Assembly: GCA_949295675.1 (NCBI GenBank)
Contig: CASFMA010000067.1
Span: forward strand, 1-58,223
Origin: an uncultured Spirochaetales bacterium
GTDB lineage: Bacteria > Spirochaetota > Spirochaetia > Sphaerochaetales > Sphaerochaetaceae
Direction: 5' to 3'
Length of the DNA stretch: 58,223 bases
In this document: positions 42,702-55,939 of the stretch, one piece after another
How the letters are laid out: each line of letters starts with the position of its first letter
Position numbering within the stretch: position 1 is the first letter of the stretch
The notes under the pieces: model-generated
What the model was told of the DNA's origin: nothing
Database searches by the model: none
Seen by the model: only the letters and a program-made list of their open reading frames with translations
Translations under genes and position numbers: made by a program

Positions 42702-43166
42702 CTACATCTTCGACACATCTATCCAGGCTGCTGCGTTCGAGAGCTTTTCCAGCTCTGCCGGGGTGAGCTCTATTGCGCTGTTCGGGGAGCCTGCTGCCGG
42801 GAAGACCGTGCCGAAGCGCTTGAGCGAGTTGTCAAGATAGACCTTGACGCCTTCCTTCACCGCAAATGGACACACGCCTCCTACAGGATGGCCTGTGGCA
42901 TTCTCTACATCCTCCAGAGCTATCATGCGAGCTTTCTCGTGGAAGATGTCCTTGAATTTGCGGTTGTCTATCTTCGTATCGCCAGCAAGGACGATTATGA
43001 TCGCTCCGCCTGCTGTCATGAACGACATGCTCTTTGCTATGCGAGCCTCTTCTGTATTCAGATCAGCCGCAGCTTCCTTGACAGTAGCTGATGACTCCTG
43101 GAATTCCAGGATGTCCCCGTCTTTGCCGTATTTTCTGAGGTATTCTCTTACATTCTCGATGCTCAT
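42702..43166 (-). CDS. YbaK/EbsC-family aminoacyl-tRNA deacylase
   Basis: 154 residues. The family clears mischarged tRNA (for example Cys- or Ala-tRNAPro) in trans. Typical segments are IAKSMSFMTAGGAIIIVLAGD with the conserved lysine, ATGHPVGGVCPFAV and VYLDNSLKRFGTVFPAAGSP. The exact substrate is not readable. The start has no Shine-Dalgarno and follows TAAAAT by 6 nt. It is convergent with priA, 2 bp between stops. Confidence 0.88.
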   Translation of the reverse strand: MSIENVREYLRKYGKDGDILEFQESSATVKEAAADLNTEEARIAKSMSFMTAGGAIIIVLAGDTKIDNRKFKDIFHEKARMIALEDVENATGHPVGGVCPFAVKEGVKVYLDNSLKRFGTVFPAAGSPNSAIELTPAELEKLSNAAAWIDVSKM

Positions 43167-43207: not shown

Positions 43208-43224
43208 AGTGTCAAAGTGACACT
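43208..43224. promoter_or_regulatory. Perfect palindrome upstream of the hsp20 sigma-54 promoter
   Basis: AGTGTCA-AAG-TGACACT, a perfect 7+7 inverted repeat. It lies about 130-150 bp before the predicted sigma-54 start site, the usual place for an upstream activating sequence of an enhancer-binding protein. Confidence 0.6.
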
Positions 43225-43328
43225 AAAAGGGGCATCGCCGCATGCTGTGTGTCGTTTTGATGCTTAGCTGGATGCCATAGTTGTCTTGCCTAAAAATTAA
43301 TTTCTTATAATATAGTTGGATATATAAG

Positions 43329-43345
43329 TTGGCACGCTTCATGCT
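43329..43345 (+). promoter_or_regulatory. Sigma-54 promoter of hsp20
   Basis: TTGGCACGCTTCATGCT matches the consensus TTGGCACG-N4-TTGCW at all but one position, with GG (-24) and GC (-12) exactly 10 nt apart. The predicted start site near 43355 leaves about 30 nt to the ATG with AAGGAG in between. A possible sigma-70 TATAAT lies about 25 bp upstream but lacks a well-spaced -35. Confidence 0.72.
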
Positions 43346-43385
43346 TATATGTTTGTGCAGCCGAAAGGCGATAAGGAGATATAAA

Positions 43386-43817
43386 ATGAGATACGTAATA
43401 ACTAGGAATATAGCACCAAGTCTTGCAGGCATAGATTCGCTGTTCTCTGATTTCTTTTCAGATGTAAGCACGACAAAGATTCCTCCTGTTGATATCTACG
43501 AGACAGAGAATGAATATGTCATAGAGGCAGAGATCGCTGGCTATGGCGATGATGATGTGAAGATCGCGGTCAAAGACGGGGTGCTTTCGATTTCGTCTTC
43601 GACTACATGGAAGGAGAGGCTGAGCAAGGCAAGGGAAGCCAAGAACATGATTGTCTCAGAGATAAAGCTTCCTGAGTTCTCAAGATCTTTCATCCTTCCT
43701 GAGGATTCTGATGCCGCAGCCATAACAGCTGAGAGCAATGATGGCATCCTGACTGTCCGTATACCGAGGCTGAGGAAAGCTGAGCCTGGCAGGATAGAGA
43801 TAAAGATAGGCAAGTAA
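43386..43817 (+). CDS. Hsp20 small heat-shock protein
   Basis: 143 residues. An alpha-crystallin domain spans about 35-135 (PPVDIYETENEYVIEAEIAG, VKIAVKDGVLSIS, NDGILTVRIPR), with the C-terminal IxI-type motif in RIEIKIGK. It acts as an ATP-independent holdase in the cytoplasm. AAGGAG lies 7 nt before the ATG at 43386. It is monocistronic with its own terminator, behind a predicted sigma-54 promoter, which is unusual for this family. Confidence 0.93.
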   Translation: MRYVITRNIAPSLAGIDSLFSDFFSDVSTTKIPPVDIYETENEYVIEAEIAGYGDDDVKIAVKDGVLSISSSTTWKERLSKAREAKNMIVSEIKLPEFSRSFILPEDSDAAAITAESNDGILTVRIPRLRKAEPGRIEIKIGK

Positions 43818-48051: not shown

Positions 48052-50286
48052 CTATTCGGTATCCCTCAGCCTGACTCTGGGCCTTTTGGGTGGAAGCTTC
48101 ACCTTGACTTTGTTCTTTATCAGATAGCATCTGTGCACATAACCGTAGTTCTTGAAGTCAAAGCCAATTGTCTGCTCCGTGATGTCCTCGACGATGTAGT
48201 CTCTCCTGACATCTTCATCAAGCCTGAACTTGCGGAAGTTCGTGCTGAATATGAGCGTTCCGCCAGGGGCGAGGTGCATGGCTGCCGCTTTTATGAGCCT
48301 GTAATGGTCCCTCTGCACATCGAACATCGCCCTGTCCTTGCTGTTGGAGAATGTCGGGGGATCGCAGAAGATCAGATCAAATCTGTCATATGTATCCCAA
48401 AGCCAGTCTATGGCATCGCTCCTGTAGAAGAAGTTCTCGATATCTGTCGGGTAGCCATTGAGCCTGAGGTTTGCTATGGCCCAGTCTAGGTATGTAGCTG
48501 ATGCGTCGACTGATACTGTTGATATCGCACCGCCCTTGATGGCATTCAGCGTGGCCGTGCCTGTATAGCAGAAGAGATTCAGGAACCTCTTGCCATCTGC
48601 CATCTCCTGTATCAGTGAGCGTACCGGACGGTGGTCGAGGAATATGCCTGTGTCAAGATAGTCCTGGAAGTTGACAAGCGCCTTCACTCCATTCTCCCTT
48701 ATGATGTTGAATCTGTTGGATGACGCGAGGCGTGTGTACTGGCTTTTGCCTTTATGGCTCTTCCTCTGCTTGACATATATGTTCTCGATATCTATTCCTG
48801 TAGCTCTCTCTGTGACGAATATGATCTCATTCAGTCGCTTCTCCGCAAGCTCGGGATCGACATCGGATGGGGCAGCATATTCAGCCAGGTTGATCCATTT
48901 TCCCTCATAGATATCTATAGCAGCCGCATATTCAGGGATGTCAGCGTCATATATGCGATAGCATGTGACGCCTTCCTCAGCAGCCTCCTTGCTGTATTTC
49001 TCATAGTTCGAGAGTATCTTGCTGTATATTATCTTCTCTGTAGCTGAGAGCTCCCTGGCCATGCGTTCGGCTTTCTTGGCTTTTGCCCTCTCAACGATGG
49101 CCGCCCTTTCCTCATCGGTGTAGATGATGTAATGGGCTGCCTGGCACTGTATCGGGCCGTTGAAAAGGGTGTTGGTCCTGTCTGGCTTCATGTCTATGTT
49201 GGACAGAAGGTCGCTGGAGCCAGTGAGTATTGTGGCCCTCCAGCCCTTGAAGACCTTCGTAAGGGTTTCTCCTATCCCTGCATACAGCCTGTCTATATCA
49301 CGGACACGCATCCTCTCTCCATATGGAGGGTCTGTGACTATGTATCCTGCTTCTCCAGGCCTGTCTTCATCGGTGTAGGAGAGGAAGTCCTTGACCTTGA
49401 AGTCTATAAGCCCATCAACCCCGGCCTTCTCAGCGGCTTCCTTTGCTATCGAGACCGCACGCGGCGAGATGTCGGAGGCATAGATCATGATGTCTTTCTC
49501 GTCAATTGCCTTCTGATGCTTCTCTTCTGCCTCTTTTATGATTTCTTCCCAGATGTCCTCTCTGTAGAGAGGGAGGCGCTGGAATGCGAATGGCTTCTTC
49601 CTCATCAGGCCAGGGGCTGTATCAGAGGCTATCAGCGCTGCTTCTATGGCAAGCGTCCCTGAGCCGCAGAATGGGTCAAGGAATATCCCTGGCTGCCCGC
49701 TGTCTGCTGTCTTCTTCCATTCAGAGCGTGCTATGAGCGCCGCTGCAAGGTGTTCCTTGAGCACGGCCTCTGTCTCCTCATCGGGCCTGTATCCTCTTCT
49801 GTGAAGCCCTTCGCCCGAGAAGTCTATGTACCATTTTACTGTACGTTCATGGACGTGCACGTGGACTTCAACATCTGGATCTGTCGTGTCGATATCCGGG
49901 CGGTTGCCTTCGAACTTCTCCCTGAGCCTGTCGCAGATAGCATCCTTGACACGGAGCGATGCGTAGTGGCTGTTCCTTATCCATGGGCATGATGCTGTCG
50001 TGAGCGTCACTTTCAGTGTCTTGTCAGGAGCCGTCCATTCTTCCCATGGAAGCGAGAGCGTCGCATCATACAGCTCTTCATCGTTTTCAGTATCTTCATC
50101 AATGTACAGGGCCATGAGAAGCCTTGAGGAGATCCTGGAATACATGCAGAAGCGCATTCCTTCCTCAATCCCTCCCTGGAACTCAACACCTGATGTCGTC
50201 TGTCTTACGTCCTTTCCGCCAACCCGTCTGGCTTCATCAGCTACCAGATCACCCTGGTTAGCCGCACATGCTGCGAAGAATATCAT
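48052..50286 (-). CDS. rlmL: 23S rRNA methyltransferase RlmKL
   Basis: 744 residues, the full fused form that makes m2G2445 and m7G2069. The N-terminus (about 1-160) is ferredoxin-like plus THUMP, followed by the RlmL domain with FLDPFCGSGTLAIEAALIA and catalytic VTDPPYGERM, then the RlmK domain with FLNLFCYTGTATLNAI and IFCDPPTFSNS. The start ATGATATTCTTTGCAGC has AAGGAG 6 nt upstream and overlaps the hslO stop. Third gene of the ftsH-hslO-rlmKL operon. Confidence 0.95.
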   Translation of the reverse strand: MIFFAACAANQGDLVADEARRVGGKDVRQTTSGVEFQGGIEEGMRFCMYSRISSRLLMALYIDEDTENDEELYDATLSLPWEEWTAPDKTLKVTLTTASCPWIRNSHYASLRVKDAICDRLREKFEGNRPDIDTTDPDVEVHVHVHERTVKWYIDFSGEGLHRRGYRPDEETEAVLKEHLAAALIARSEWKKTADSGQPGIFLDPFCGSGTLAIEAALIASDTAPGLMRKKPFAFQRLPLYREDIWEEIIKEAEEKHQKAIDEKDIMIYASDISPRAVSIAKEAAEKAGVDGLIDFKVKDFLSYTDEDRPGEAGYIVTDPPYGERMRVRDIDRLYAGIGETLTKVFKGWRATILTGSSDLLSNIDMKPDRTNTLFNGPIQCQAAHYIIYTDEERAAIVERAKAKKAERMARELSATEKIIYSKILSNYEKYSKEAAEEGVTCYRIYDADIPEYAAAIDIYEGKWINLAEYAAPSDVDPELAEKRLNEIIFVTERATGIDIENIYVKQRKSHKGKSQYTRLASSNRFNIIRENGVKALVNFQDYLDTGIFLDHRPVRSLIQEMADGKRFLNLFCYTGTATLNAIKGGAISTVSVDASATYLDWAIANLRLNGYPTDIENFFYRSDAIDWLWDTYDRFDLIFCDPPTFSNSKDRAMFDVQRDHYRLIKAAAMHLAPGGTLIFSTNFRKFRLDEDVRRDYIVEDITEQTIGFDFKNYGYVHRCYLIKNKVKVKLPPKRPRVRLRDTE

Positions 50287-51212
50287 TTAGGCTCCTTGTA
50301 GATTTTCTCAAATTCCTCTTTTGTATAGCTATATTTCGATCCGCAGTTAAGGCATTCAAGCTCAAGAGGGAACTTACCTTTGAGTATCGCATCCTTTTCT
50401 GACTCCGGCAATGATGAAAGATACGATGAGAACGCCTCTCTTGTACAGGGGCATGAGAAGCCTATTGGCGTATGCCCGATATGATGCGGGTGGAACTCTG
50501 ATAGCTCCTTCTCCACATATTCCCTTGCCGTCATCCCTTCTCCAAGCAGCCGTCCAAGCTTCGGAAGCTTCCCAGATTTCTCCTGCAGCTTCTCCAGCGT
50601 TGCGTTAGGGCATCCTGGCAGCGCCTGCATGAAGAGCCCTCCTGCTCCCCACACCCTTCCTTCTCCATCGAAATCTATTGATAGGTAGAAGAGGGAAGGG
50701 GTCTGCTCCGATGTGGAGAAATAGAGCGCGAGATCGTTCGCAAGATTGCCGTATTCAAGCATTATATCCCCGGAGAATGGTGTCTTGCTTCCTTCCAGGT
50801 ACTTTGTGATGGTCATGAATCCCGGACCATATATAAGTGATGTATCAAGCGATGCTGGAGGCTCTTCCAGCGGTATCGGGTTATTTGCAAGATAGCCCCT
50901 GACAGCTCCCGATGCCCATGCCTCTATGCTCATTCCCTTGACTGGCCCCCCGCACTGTATCTGCAGCTGTATCCTGTCGTTCCCTTTTACTGTCGAAGAG
51001 AGAAGTGCGCCTGCTATGTAGCCTTGCCCGAGCATATAAGTTTCGAGAAAGCCTGTTCCATGGTTGGCTTTCATGTCATTCACCATTGTCGTCGCTGAGA
51101 CAGCGGACAGCCGTACACTGTCGCCGCCTATCAGGAAAACCTCCCTTCCATCAGGTGGAAGAGAGGCCATATGTTCTGAAAGTACCTTATCGTCTATAGC
51201 CTTGCGGATCAT
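50283..51212 (-). CDS. hslO: Hsp33 redox-regulated chaperone
   Basis: 309 residues. The C-terminal zinc switch is present as CPC and CLNC (CPCTREAF and LECLNCGSKY), four cysteines that form disulfides on oxidation and activate the holdase. The N-terminal domain includes FLIGGDSVRLSAVSATTMV and QIQCGGPVKGM, matching Hsp33. It lies 9 bp after ftsH and overlaps rlmKL by 4 bp, so a proteostasis gene pair is followed by an rRNA modification enzyme. Confidence 0.93.
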   Translation of the reverse strand: MIRKAIDDKVLSEHMASLPPDGREVFLIGGDSVRLSAVSATTMVNDMKANHGTGFLETYMLGQGYIAGALLSSTVKGNDRIQLQIQCGGPVKGMSIEAWASGAVRGYLANNPIPLEEPPASLDTSLIYGPGFMTITKYLEGSKTPFSGDIMLEYGNLANDLALYFSTSEQTPSLFYLSIDFDGEGRVWGAGGLFMQALPGCPNATLEKLQEKSGKLPKLGRLLGEGMTAREYVEKELSEFHPHHIGHTPIGFSCPCTREAFSSYLSSLPESEKDAILKGKFPLELECLNCGSKYSYTKEEFEKIYKEPK

Positions 51213-51221
51213 AGCCGTAGC

Positions 51222-53186
51222 TTATTTGACTGTGTACTGTTTTGCAAGAGCCTCAAACTCATCTCCTTCAAGCACTTCCTTCTCCAGCAGCGCCTGGGCT
51301 ATGTGTTCCAGCGCTTCCTTGTTCTTCTCAAGGTTTGCCTTGACTATGCCATAGCGGTCGTTTATGAGCCTGGCTGTCTCTGTGTCTATGTACTCCTGTG
51401 TCTTCTCCGAGTATTCCTTGCCGCCTGAGACTCCTTCTATCCCGGACTTTGTCTTCGGAAGCGTCATGTTGCGGTAACGCTCAGACATTCCGTAGTCTGT
51501 TATCATCTGGCGTACTGTGTCCGAGGCCCGTGATATATCATTGCTTGCGCCTGTCGATATATTCGAGAATGTCACCTCTTCGGCGGCTCTTCCTCCAAGA
51601 AGCACGTCAACGGAGCCAAGCAGTTCATCTTCAGAGAGCAGGAACCTGTCCTCTGTCGGGTACTGCAGCGTATAGCCGAGGGCTCCATAGCCTCTTGGGA
51701 TTATCGAGATCTTCGACACAGGGGATGATCCTGGCGTGAGGAATGCCGTGAGGGCATGGCCTGTCTCGTGGTATGCGACCCTGATCCTCTCCTTTTCATC
51801 GAGCACGCGGCTCTTCCTCTCAAGTCCGGCTATTGATTTCTCTATCGCGTTCTCGAAGTCTACCTGCGATATGCTTGTGTGGTGCTCCCGCACGGCTATC
51901 AGGGCAGCTTCATTTGCAATGTTCGCAAGATCAGCTCCAGCAAGTCCTCCGGATGCCTGGGCAATCTTCCTGAGATCTACCGAATCATCAAGCTTCATTC
52001 CTTTCGTATGTATCCTGAGGATCGCTTCACGGCCGGCAAGGTCCGGCTTGTCGACAAGCACCTGCCTGTCAAAGCGTCCCGGGCGCAGCAGGGCAGGGTC
52101 AAGTATCTCCGGCCTGTTCGTAGCCGCAAGGATTATGACGCCGGTCCTTGAATCAAATCCGTCCATCTCGACAAGCAGCTGGTTGAGCGTCTGCTCTCGC
52201 TCATCATTGCCGCCGATGCTGGCATTCGAGCGCTGGCGGCCGATGGCATCGATCTCGTCTATGAATATTATGCAGGGGCTCTTCTCCTTCGCCTGCTTGA
52301 AGAGGTCACGTACCCTTGCTGCTCCTACGCCTACGAACATCTCGACGAAATCAGCGCCGCTCATGCGGAAGAACGGTACGCCGGCTTCTCCTGCGACAGC
52401 CTTTGCCAGCAGTGTCTTTCCAGTTCCAGGAGGACCTACGAGAAGCACGCCTTTCGGTATATGGGCACCCATTTCAGTGTACTTCTCAGGGCGCTTGAGG
52501 AAGTCTACGACTTCTTCCAGTTCCGCTTTTGCTTCATCCTCGCCGGCTACATCGGCAAACCTTATTCCAGTCTCGCCTTCAGCGACAAGCTGGCTCTTGT
52601 TCTGGTTGAACGACATCACTCCCTGTGCGTTGCCGGTGATCTTCCGCGACATCCAGGCATAGAATATGAAGAATATCGCGATTGGGAAGATCATCGAGAT
52701 GATTGATGCAAGCACAGATGGCTTCGGTGGCTCTGTTGCGTAGTACTCAACGCCTTTTGAGTCGAGAAGAGGCACGAAGCTTGGATCATCTATCATGTAT
52801 GTCTGGTACGGTATTATGGCTGATGTATCCAGATTAAGCGGTATCTGCCGGCTTCTTGCGATCTCATTCAGCATCCCCACGGCGTCATCCTTCGTGACTG
52901 AATATCCTATGTACTGATCACCATCGAATGCCACCTGAACGATAGTTCCGTCGTCAATCAGGCTTTTGAACGTGCTGTAATCAACGTTGGCATATTGTAT
53001 ATGCGGCGTGAACAGCAGGTAGTTTATCAGGAATACAAGCAGCAGCGCTACGATGAAGGACCACGCTGAATATGTGAACTTCTTCCTCTTGTCGTTGCTG
53101 CCTTTTCCCTCTGTATGTATGCCAGGATCCTGCTTATGCTTCCTGGTGCTGTCGTCTGCCATGAGCAGATTGTCCTTATCTTCCAT
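51222..53186 (-). CDS. ftsH: ATP-dependent zinc metalloprotease FtsH
   Basis: 654 residues. Transmembrane helices lie at about 43-59 and 161-179 around a periplasmic domain. The AAA+ module has Walker A GPPGTGKT (251-258), Walker [13 protein letters not shown] and the pore [16 protein letters not shown]. The protease domain has HETGH. It degrades membrane and regulatory proteins. The frame runs 34 codons further upstream, but those lie across a likely promoter (CATAAT, 53217-53212), so the ATG at 53186 with AAGGAA 9 nt upstream is used. Confidence 0.95.
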
Positions 53187-53211
53187 CTTTCTGTTTTCCT
53201 TATTCCTTAAG

Positions 53212-53217
53212 ATTATG
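53212..53217 (-). promoter_or_regulatory. Probable -10 box of ftsH
   Basis: CATAAT on the minus strand; a TTGCCT lies 15 nt upstream, shorter than ideal. No CIRCE element or sigma-32-type site was recognised. Confidence 0.35.
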
Positions 53218-53282
53218 GCCTCATTCCAAGGCAGGCAAGCTTCTTCATCCAAATTACACGTTGTGTCTAAATGACAGAGCCT

Positions 53283-53311
53283 TTGCAATATATCGTGATG
53301 GCGAATACAAT
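53283..53311 (+). promoter_or_regulatory. Leaderless promoter of the sensor kinase gene
   Basis: TTGCAA (53283-53288), a 17-nt spacer and TACAAT (53306-53311), then 6 nt to the ATG at 53318. Confidence 0.62.
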
Positions 53312-53317
53312 CGGAAT

Positions 53318-54598
53318 ATGGCTAAAGCAGGAACAAGACGTGATAAGCACCGCAGGCGTGATGGGATGGAGTCATCTGCCACTACGCTTGTGATAACGAT
53401 TGCATTCGTTTTCCTGCTTGTGCTGGCCATCATACTTTCCTCATCGCTCATCGAGGCCGAGAACCTGCGGAGGGAGAATGCCGTGGAGCGTGCTTATTCA
53501 GATATCCTGATGGCTCTCAGGATGGGCGGGGACGTTGACAGGATGATGAGGGATGAGCATGTCCTTGGCTTCGGATACTATACCCATATGGGTACCCCTC
53601 TTTATGTGTGGGGGGATGCCTATCAGCGTCTTCCTCTCACATCGTTCCCTTCAGGCACGGACATAAATGGATCATATTCCTCTTATGACAGCACGACAGG
53701 AGTCATCGATACTGTGCGTTACGTCAGCTCTGTATTCGTATCTCCTGAGAATCTTCTGAGGGAGAGCGGCTCTGTCATTGAGTATCCTGATCTCATATAT
53801 ATATCATTCGATGCCTCCAGTTATGCCGAACGCGTACGTTTCCTGATAGCGATATCGTTCCTGGCGTGCATAGGGATACTGGCAATCTATCTCATAGTCC
53901 TCTATATCTTCACGCAGAACACCAGATACAGGGAGACTCTCAGGCGCCAGGAGAGCCTCGTGCGCCTTGGACAGGCTGCGAGAACGCTGACCCATGAGAT
54001 AAAGAACCCGCTTTCCGCCATCAGGCTTGAGGTCGCTATCCTCAAACGCAATGTGCCGCCTTCGCTTATCGATGATGTGGCTATCATCGACCATGAGACA
54101 GACAGGCTTACGAAGCTCACTGACAAGGTATCTGATTATCTGCGCAATCCGCTTGGCAATCCGCAGCTTCTTGATATAGTCCAGGAGCTTCGCATACTTA
54201 TATCGCTGTTCCCTGAAGGCGTGCGCCTCAGGAATGATGCCGAAGAGGGGCTTCTCATCCTGTTTGATCCTGACAGGCTCAGGTCTGTGCTTGAGAACCT
54301 GATAAAGAATGGTGTCGAGGCCTGCGAGGGCATGGATATCGATGTTGAAGTCTCTGTGGAGGCCAGCGAGAAGGACAGGTGCATCATATATGTGAAGGAC
54401 AAGGGCATCGGGCTTTCCGAAAGCGATGTCAAGCGTATATTCGATCCGTTCTACACGACTAAGATACATGGTTCAGGCATAGGTTTGTCGATAAGCCAGC
54501 AGTTTGTGGAGGCCGCCGGAGGGCGCCTTCGCCTGTATCCTGGCGCATATGGCGGCACGACAGCGGAGGTAATCCTGCCTCTGCAGGCTAGGAGTTGA
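53318..54598 (+). CDS. NtrB-like sensor histidine kinase
   Basis: 426 residues. Two transmembrane helices (about 21-43 and 174-199) flank a periplasmic sensor of about 130 residues with no recognised fold. The cytoplasmic part has the H-box ARTLTHEIKNPLSAIRLE with H226, then N, G1 and G2 boxes (LENLIKNGVEACEG, VKDKGIGLSE, HGSGIGLSISQQFVEAAGG). The H-box belongs to the NtrB/ZraS group that pairs with sigma-54 activators. The start is 6 nt after TACAAT; no ribosome site. The response regulator follows at 3 bp. Confidence 0.9.
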   Translation: MAKAGTRRDKHRRRDGMESSATTLVITIAFVFLLVLAIILSSSLIEAENLRRENAVERAYSDILMALRMGGDVDRMMRDEHVLGFGYYTHMGTPLYVWGDAYQRLPLTSFPSGTDINGSYSSYDSTTGVIDTVRYVSSVFVSPENLLRESGSVIEYPDLIYISFDASSYAERVRFLIAISFLACIGILAIYLIVLYIFTQNTRYRETLRRQESLVRLGQAARTLTHEIKNPLSAIRLEVAILKRNVPPSLIDDVAIIDHETDRLTKLTDKVSDYLRNPLGNPQLLDIVQELRILISLFPEGVRLRNDAEEGLLILFDPDRLRSVLENLIKNGVEACEGMDIDVEVSVEASEKDRCIIYVKDKGIGLSESDVKRIFDPFYTTKIHGSGIGLSISQQFVEAAGGRLRLYPGAYGGTTAEVILPLQARS

Positions 54599-54601
54599 GA
54601 T

Positions 54602-55939
54602 GTGAAGATACTTATCTGCGATGATGAAGAGAACATCAGGAACGTGATGAAGCGGTTCCTTGCGATGGAGGGGATAGAGAGCGATACCGCAGAGAATGGG
54701 CTCTCGGCTGAGAGGATGCTGCGTGACAATGCCTATGATGCGCTGCTTGTCGATCTGCGGATGCCGGGGCTTGATGGCCTGTCACTCATAAGATGGATGA
54801 AGGCGGAGGGCTTCAGGCTCCCCGTGATAATGATAAGCGCCCATGGGGATATAACAGATGCTGTGACAGCTTTGAAGGAAGGCGCTTCTGATTATATCGT
54901 CAAGCCATTCGATCCTGAGGAGCTTGTAATAAAGATAAAGAACCTTGTCGAGTCGACGAACATGAAGAACATCGTCGAGGGTGGCAGGAGGGAGACTGGA
55001 TTCATCGGCGAGAGCACTGAGATGCTTCATATCAAGAGCATCATCCAGAAGATCGCCCCATCAGGCGCCACGGCCCTGATAACAGGTGAGTCAGGTACTG
55101 GAAAGGAGGTTGTCGCACGTGAGATCCATGCGTTCTCATCTGTCCCTGACGGGCCTTTCATCGCGATAAACATTGGAGGCGTTCCCGAAAACCTCCTTGA
55201 GTCAGAGCTGTTCGGATATGAGAAGGGAGCGTTCACAGGGGCTGATAAGAGGAAGACCGGCCTGTTTGAGCTTGCTTCTGGAGGCACGCTTTTCCTTGAC
55301 GAGATCGGCGATATGCCTCTGTCATTGCAGGTGAAGATCCTGCGTGTCCTGCAGGAGCGGAAGATCACGAGGCTTGGAGGCACGATGCAGATGCCGATCA
55401 ATGCAAGGATCGTCGCTGCGACGAACAAGGATCTCGAGGAGATGGTCAGGGAGGGCAGCTTCCGTGAGGATCTGTTCTATCGCCTGAATGTCGTGAGGAT
55501 ACATATCCCGCCGCTTCGTGAAAGGCGTTCGGATATCCCGCTGCTGGCGGCTTACATCGTCTCGAAATACAACAGGCAGATGGGCATGAGGATCACAGGG
55601 TTCGCTCCTGATGCGCTTGAAGCTCTCAAGAACCATCCGTTCTATGGCAACGTGAGGGAGCTTGAGAACGTGATAGAGCGGGCGATGATCTTCGCGGATG
55701 GCTCGGTGATAGGGCTTGATGATCTTGATCTGAGGTGCGCCATGATAAAGAAGCCGGCGGAAAGGCCTGATGACCAGGTGCATCTGCCTGAGGCGCTTTC
55801 CCTCAGGGACATAGAGCGGAATGCGATAATCAATGCGCTTCACAGATGGGAAGGCAACAGGACAAGGGCTGCCGAGGAGCTTGGGATAAGCCGCCGTACC
55901 TTGATTTCCAAGATCGCTGAGTATTCAATTGATTTATGA
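54602..55939 (+). CDS. NtrC-family sigma-54-dependent response regulator
   Basis: 445 residues from GTG 54602. The receiver domain has acidic pocket CDDEE and phospho-acceptor D51 in LLVDLRMPG. The AAA+ domain has Walker A TGESGTGKE, the sigma-54-contacting GAFTGA in GYEKGAFTGADKRK, and Walker B GGTLFLDEIGD. The C-terminal Fis-type helix-turn-helix ends NRTRAAEELGISRRTLISKI. It should activate sigma-54 promoters from upstream sites; the hsp20 promoter is one candidate in the window. AGGAG lies upstream. Confidence 0.95.
   Translation: MKILICDDEENIRNVMKRFLAMEGIESDTAENGLSAERMLRDNAYDALLVDLRMPGLDGLSLIRWMKAEGFRLPVIMISAHGDITDAVTALKEGASDYIVKPFDPEELVIKIKNLVESTNMKNIVEGGRRETGFIGESTEMLHIKSIIQKIAPSGATALITGESGTGKEVVAREIHAFSSVPDGPFIAINIGGVPENLLESELFGYEKGAFTGADKRKTGLFELASGGTLFLDEIGDMPLSLQVKILRVLQERKITRLGGTMQMPINARIVAATNKDLEEMVREGSFREDLFYRLNVVRIHIPPLRERRSDIPLLAAYIVSKYNRQMGMRITGFAPDALEALKNHPFYGNVRELENVIERAMIFADGSVIGLDDLDLRCAMIKKPAERPDDQVHLPEALSLRDIERNAIINALHRWEGNRTRAAEELGISRRTLISKIAEYSIDL

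Follow-up and report, generated by a model that had tools for sequence, protein, structure and literature searches.

How small heat-shock genes are controlled in Spirochaetia that lack HrcA is an open gap. In other bacteria, HrcA acting at CIRCE controls hsp20-type genes, and control of heat-shock genes by sigma-54 has, to our knowledge, rarely been documented. The question is posed in concrete form by an hsp20 gene of an uncultured Spirochaetales bacterium, which lies within the 58,223-nucleotide stretch of contig analysed here (the window) and for which the original prediction proposed a sigma-54 promoter with an upstream palindrome bound by an enhancer-binding protein. Following up this proposal leads to a concrete sequence for the enhancer, to a candidate for its activator and to a small predicted regulon that is conserved throughout the class. 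No account of hsp20 being controlled by sigma-54 in a spirochaete was found in the open-licence literature. The coordinates of the features concerned are collected in Table 1.

Table 1. Features of the hsp20 locus and of the candidate regulators (positions in the window unless a contig is named).
Feature	Position	Strand	Remarks
Divergent tRNA-editing-domain gene (YbaK/ProX type)	42702..43166	-	
Distal enhancer palindrome AGTGTCA-AAG-TGACACT	43208..43224	.	15-bp core 43209-43223, -120 from TTGG
Proximal, weaker enhancer copy GTGTCGTTTTGATGC	43249..43263	.	at -80; distance to the distal site exactly 40 bp
-24/-12 (predicted sigma-54) promoter TTGGCACGCTTCATGCT	43329..43345	+	expected transcription start near 43356; conserved in relatives
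Ribosome-binding site AAGGAGA, upstream of the hsp20 start	43373..43379	+	read from sequence
hsp20, small heat-shock protein	43386..43817	+	143 aa; Pfam PF00011, 71.8 bits
Membrane histidine kinase paired with EBPa	53261..54598	+	hydropathy maximum 2.98
EBPa, NtrC-type response regulator (GAFTGA, Fis-type HTH)	54602..55939	+	activator favoured by the original prediction
EBPb, Rrp2-type response regulator	contig C64, L002:1075-2433	minus	

The near-perfect -24/-12 site announced for hsp20 is indeed there. Its GG-to-GC spacing is canonical and it departs from the consensus YTGGCACG-N4-TTGCW at a single point, with ATGC in place of TTGC. The perfect palindrome is likewise confirmed letter for letter, at a somewhat greater distance than the estimate of about 140 bp, since it lies 162–178 nt before the ATG. 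It begins 120–121 nt before the -24 element. Control by RpoN would fall if the genome had no rpoN gene, an objection that fails because one is found on contig C104 (PF04552, 172.8 bits; TIGR02395, 339.9 bits against a cut-off of 277.35).

A small hairpin (e.g., TGTCCGAAAGGACA) lies right at the predicted 5' end of the hsp20 mRNA (43356-43372). It is present at the same place in the hsp20 genes of L005 and L006 and in several close relatives, while other relatives are without it, and it could be an mRNA-stabilising element. A role as a thermometer in the 5'-UTR was considered and rejected, as the hairpin occurs only in some members of the genus and leaves the ribosome-binding site uncovered.

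Sites of this quality are rare. The genome is an incomplete draft assembly of 1.77 Mb (78 % complete), and in a scan by pattern rather than by weight matrix TTGGCACGNNNNWTGCW occurs just four times. Two of the sites precede hsp20 genes (the window's and a second one on contig C5), one precedes a C64 gene of the sigma-70 family and the last is on C31. The genome search for -24/-12 sites that had been suggested thus leads to two hsp20 genes and one sigma gene among four matches. When up to two mismatches to TTGGCACGNNNNWTGCW are allowed, the same kind of scan returns 142 sites, as compared to 60 for the reversed control. The third and last hsp20 gene of the assembly (C26) has a weaker upstream site, TTGGCACACTCTTTGCC, so that all three hsp20 genes, like the sigma gene, carry a -24/-12 site just upstream. 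The palindrome in its exact form is unique in the genome; of all instances of the motif GTRTCANNNTGAYAC it is the strongest, and the strict pattern GTRTCANNNTGAYWC is matched without mismatch at four places in the 1.77 Mb, all of them inside three of the four hsp20 and sigma promoters.

The sigma factor encoded on C64 has about 290 amino acids with regions 1.2, 2, 3 and 4 present. Its best model is TIGR02394 (RpoS), with a score of 270.6 bits that stays below the curated cut-off of 378.7, for which reason it is named only "RpoS-like". Directly upstream of the enhancers of this gene lies a gene for a protein of 130 amino acids without Pfam or NCBIfam match, from which groES diverges (L010 1640-2433).

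The geometry of the four promoters is strikingly uniform. Palindromes resembling GTRTCANNNTGAYAC are found at -120, -121, -121 and -122, counted from the initial T of TTGG, and each is accompanied by a further, in many cases weaker, copy at -80 to -82. Upstream activator sites of sigma-54 promoters are expected at roughly 80–200 bp, a range into which both positions fall. The 40-bp period of these arrays, which recurs in most relatives, is close to four helical turns, suggesting that the two sites face the same side of the DNA. Taken together, the elements before hsp20 make a convincing case, as far as sequence can make one, for a sigma-54 promoter preceded by a pair of activator sites.

How widely this arrangement is shared was assessed in 40 genomes of the class, namely this one and 39 relatives that are likewise drafts, with shuffled sequences as control. 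Those relatives with an orthologous hsp20 that carry a name are uncultured Spirochaetaceae or Spirochaetales. The close ones retain both promoter and palindrome, and in two of them (L041 and L042) the distal palindrome is identical. Across the relatives, a strict promoter precedes hsp20 in 23 of 25 regions (shuffle mean 0.013); for the sigma gene, 23 of 28 regions contain one (shuffle mean 0.007). For the enhancer motif the corresponding figures are 14 of 23 regions upstream of hsp20 (0.11 in shuffles) and 17 of 23 upstream of the sigma gene (0.085 in shuffles). The promoter is conserved farther out than the enhancer, whose motif is weak or unrecognised in several of the more distant families within the class. 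This conservation, together with the geometry and the rarity of the sites, lends strong support to the predicted control of hsp20 by RpoN and to the predicted binding of an enhancer-binding protein at the palindrome.

Three related genomes (G005, G013 and G022) deviate at the -12 element, where TTTC replaces TTGC after TTGGCA (L180, L181, L183, L155). The variant precedes the sigma gene in all three and also hsp20 in G022; the same genomes are without the EBPa family. It possibly reflects an altered sigma-54 specificity or promoters in decay.

Repressor operators are typically perfect palindromes of this kind, and the divergent tRNA-editing gene starts 42 bp from the one described here. One could thus suppose that the palindrome is the operator of an unrelated repressor, acting on hsp20 or on its divergent neighbour, and that the -24/-12 match has arisen by chance. 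Yet the motif is also found in places that lack the divergent gene, and hence is not simply the operator of that gene; it stands at a fixed distance before other hsp20 genes and before the sigma gene, which have no such neighbour, and its conservation far exceeds that of shuffled sequences. We regard this explanation as hardly credible. The classical repressor of heat-shock genes does not account for hsp20 either. HrcA was found in none of the 40 genomes by a search that was positive in seven known genomes used as control. A perfect CIRCE element precedes hsp20 in a spirochaete outside this group (L048), in contrast to the group itself, and no CIRCE was detected in the other 287 loci, the hsp20 region of the window included.

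Which protein would act at these sites? The genome encodes three sigma-54 activators: besides EBPa, which lies in the window, there are EBPb on C64 and, on C31, a PspF-like protein. The GAFTGA-type activator and kinase that had been noted 11 kb from hsp20 are present as described, and one reading of the locus keeps RpoN-dependence and assigns activation to this pair (53261-55939). The distance is about the same in G004, the pair adjoins ftsH and hslO/Hsp33, and in G032 a member of the EBPa family is encoded some 270 bp upstream of another pair of hsp20 genes. In most relatives, however, the synteny between EBPa and hsp20 is lost, and G033 and G035, which have EBPb and no EBPa, keep both motif and promoter.

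A further argument comes from the recognition helices. In the clade formed by G006, G007, G009 and G023 the enhancer motif has changed to GGGTCANNNTGACCC; there the helix of EBPb has changed from RKTLHRKL to RKTITRRM, whereas that of EBPa remains SRRTLISKI. This covariation is essentially one event in one clade and is thus suggestive rather than proof. The persistence of the motif without the EBPa family and the helix covariation turn the attribution of hsp20 to the window's own regulator into an unlikely one, and the activator is most likely EBPb. Both proteins have a Fis-type HTH and both are present in most relatives, so that the palindromes might conceivably be common to the two and integrate two signals. 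Given that their helices differ and only one covaries with the motif, such sharing appears quite improbable.

EBPa may nevertheless have a role of its own in proteostasis, as its vicinity to another hsp20 pair in G032 suggests. The ftsH and hslO (Hsp33) genes beside its kinase-regulator pair (window 50283-53288) represent a possible second link of this kind.

EBPb, the preferred candidate, comprises a receiver domain, an AAA+ domain with GAFTGA and a Fis-type HTH. Its partner kinase shows no transmembrane peak in the hydropathy profile and is predicted to be soluble. The sigma gene lies 3–4 kb from EBPb on C64, and the two are near each other on one contig in most relatives.

From these features we infer how the switch would work, including the activator that acts, its phosphorylation and binding, the stress signal and the resulting induction. 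A cytoplasmic stress signal would act on the soluble C64 kinase, and phosphorylated EBPb would then bind the two palindromic sites on the same face of the DNA. From there it would loop to the closed complex of sigma-54 polymerase and open the promoter, from which hsp20 would be transcribed. The same switch is predicted to drive the remaining two hsp20 genes as well as the gene of the RpoS-like factor. The result would be a small sigma-54 stress regulon, with the RpoS-like factor relaying the signal onward. We consider it probable that an Rrp2-type EBPb-RpoN stress switch of this design, orthologous to the Borrelia cascade, acts through paired enhancers on the hsp20 genes and on the gene for the RpoS-like factor. 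In its general working it would not differ from other NtrC-class sigma-54 switches.

In Lyme-disease spirochaetes the Hk2-Rrp2 pair controls virulence genes. The comparison with this system was made on four Borreliaceae genomes, identified as such from genes of the OspC/Vsp family. Only one such activator was found in them, which over its full length is 50–51 % identical to EBPb, compared to 41 % for EBPa, and which groups with EBPb, away from EBPa, across a 100/100 branch. It adjoins an Hk2-like kinase, and about 6 kb away lies a sigma gene preceded by TTGGCACAATTTTTGCA. The latter matches the published arrangement of rpoS, in which the sigma-54 promoter is located 62 bp before the rpoS start (PMC1976401). 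The likeness thus extends to an orthologous NtrC-type regulator, a nearby RpoS-type sigma gene with a sigma-54 promoter, and a similar kinase without transmembrane segments, as has been reported for HK2 (PMC12472547). EBPb and its soluble kinase, which are found near the sigma gene class-wide, are both orthologous to and syntenic with Hk2-Rrp2.

The systems differ in that conserved tandem palindromic enhancers are present here and hsp20 belongs to the predicted regulon. For B. burgdorferi it has been shown that Rrp2, when purified, does not bind the DNA upstream of rpoS and that it activates this gene without an enhancer (PMC1976401). Consistent with this, the enhancer motif was not found near rpoS in the four Borreliaceae regions. 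The Borrelia virulence cascade might be the reduced form of a proteostasis switch of ancestral spirochaetes, in which Hk2-Rrp2 read cytoplasmic stress and, with RpoN and tandem GTRTCANNNTGAYAC enhancers, switched on hsp20 and an RpoS-like sigma factor; Borrelia would have retained the sigma branch only, after loss of the enhancers and, presumably, of the branch leading to hsp20. We give this scenario a little better than an even chance. It would give Rrp2 an ancestral setting; the signal that activates this regulator in Borrelia, and its independence of an enhancer there, have long been puzzling.

Outside the spirochaetes the closest parallel is E. coli ibpB, a small heat-shock gene for which transcription by sigma-54 besides sigma-32 is reported in work cited in PMC4370416. 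There the sigma-54 promoter supplements a sigma-32 promoter; in the genomes compared here, by contrast, HrcA was not found, and sigma-54 promoters with a defined enhancer are the class-wide arrangement. Heat-shock genes including COG0071 (IbpA) have also been predicted in sigma-54 regulons of Bacteroidota and Planctomycetota (PMC12316311). These are the phyla named there for the chaperone cluster, in passages that mention no pair of hsp20 and rpoS-like genes sharing an enhancer in Spirochaetia.

The original prediction had gone one step further and taken RpoN control of hsp20 as pointing to an envelope- or phage-shock-like response. The phage-shock part of this does not hold. PspF and PspA are encoded at another locus of the genome, one that has a sigma-54 site to itself, so that the hsp20 switch is not the phage-shock response, and phage-shock control of hsp20 was rejected on this ground. 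Both systems combine sigma-54 with an activator in the same genome; the genes are separate, however, and so is the activator, which lacks a receiver domain. A cytoplasmic stress cascade comprising hsp20 and an RpoS-like sigma factor fits the predicted regulon better than an envelope response. The locus in question (L004, C31:6042-9503) has the PspF-like activator between two pspA-like genes, one of them with a good sigma-54 site, TTGGCATGGAAATTGCT, and we take it to be a spirochaete phage-shock locus.

Contig C31 holds two further units of interest upstream of an rlmE/ftsJ-like gene. At L270 1355-1460 (C31:29354 onward), a perfect -24/-12 site, TTGGCACGCTTCTTGCT, has a strong hairpin with a T run no more than about 100 nt behind it. 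The unit contains a CCTCC (anti-Shine-Dalgarno) stretch, has no match in Rfam and is a candidate for a sigma-54-dependent small RNA. The hsp20 enhancer motif is absent from it, so another activator, perhaps EBPa, may act there. A second, similar unit lies 130 bp downstream (L270 1485-1620, C31:29484 onward), just before the rlmE-like gene. It has TTGGCACGGACCTTGTA, a GAGCAACAGTTTTCACCTCCTTT stretch like that of the first unit, and a hairpin rich in GC that is followed by T-rich sequence, and it looks like a tandem copy.
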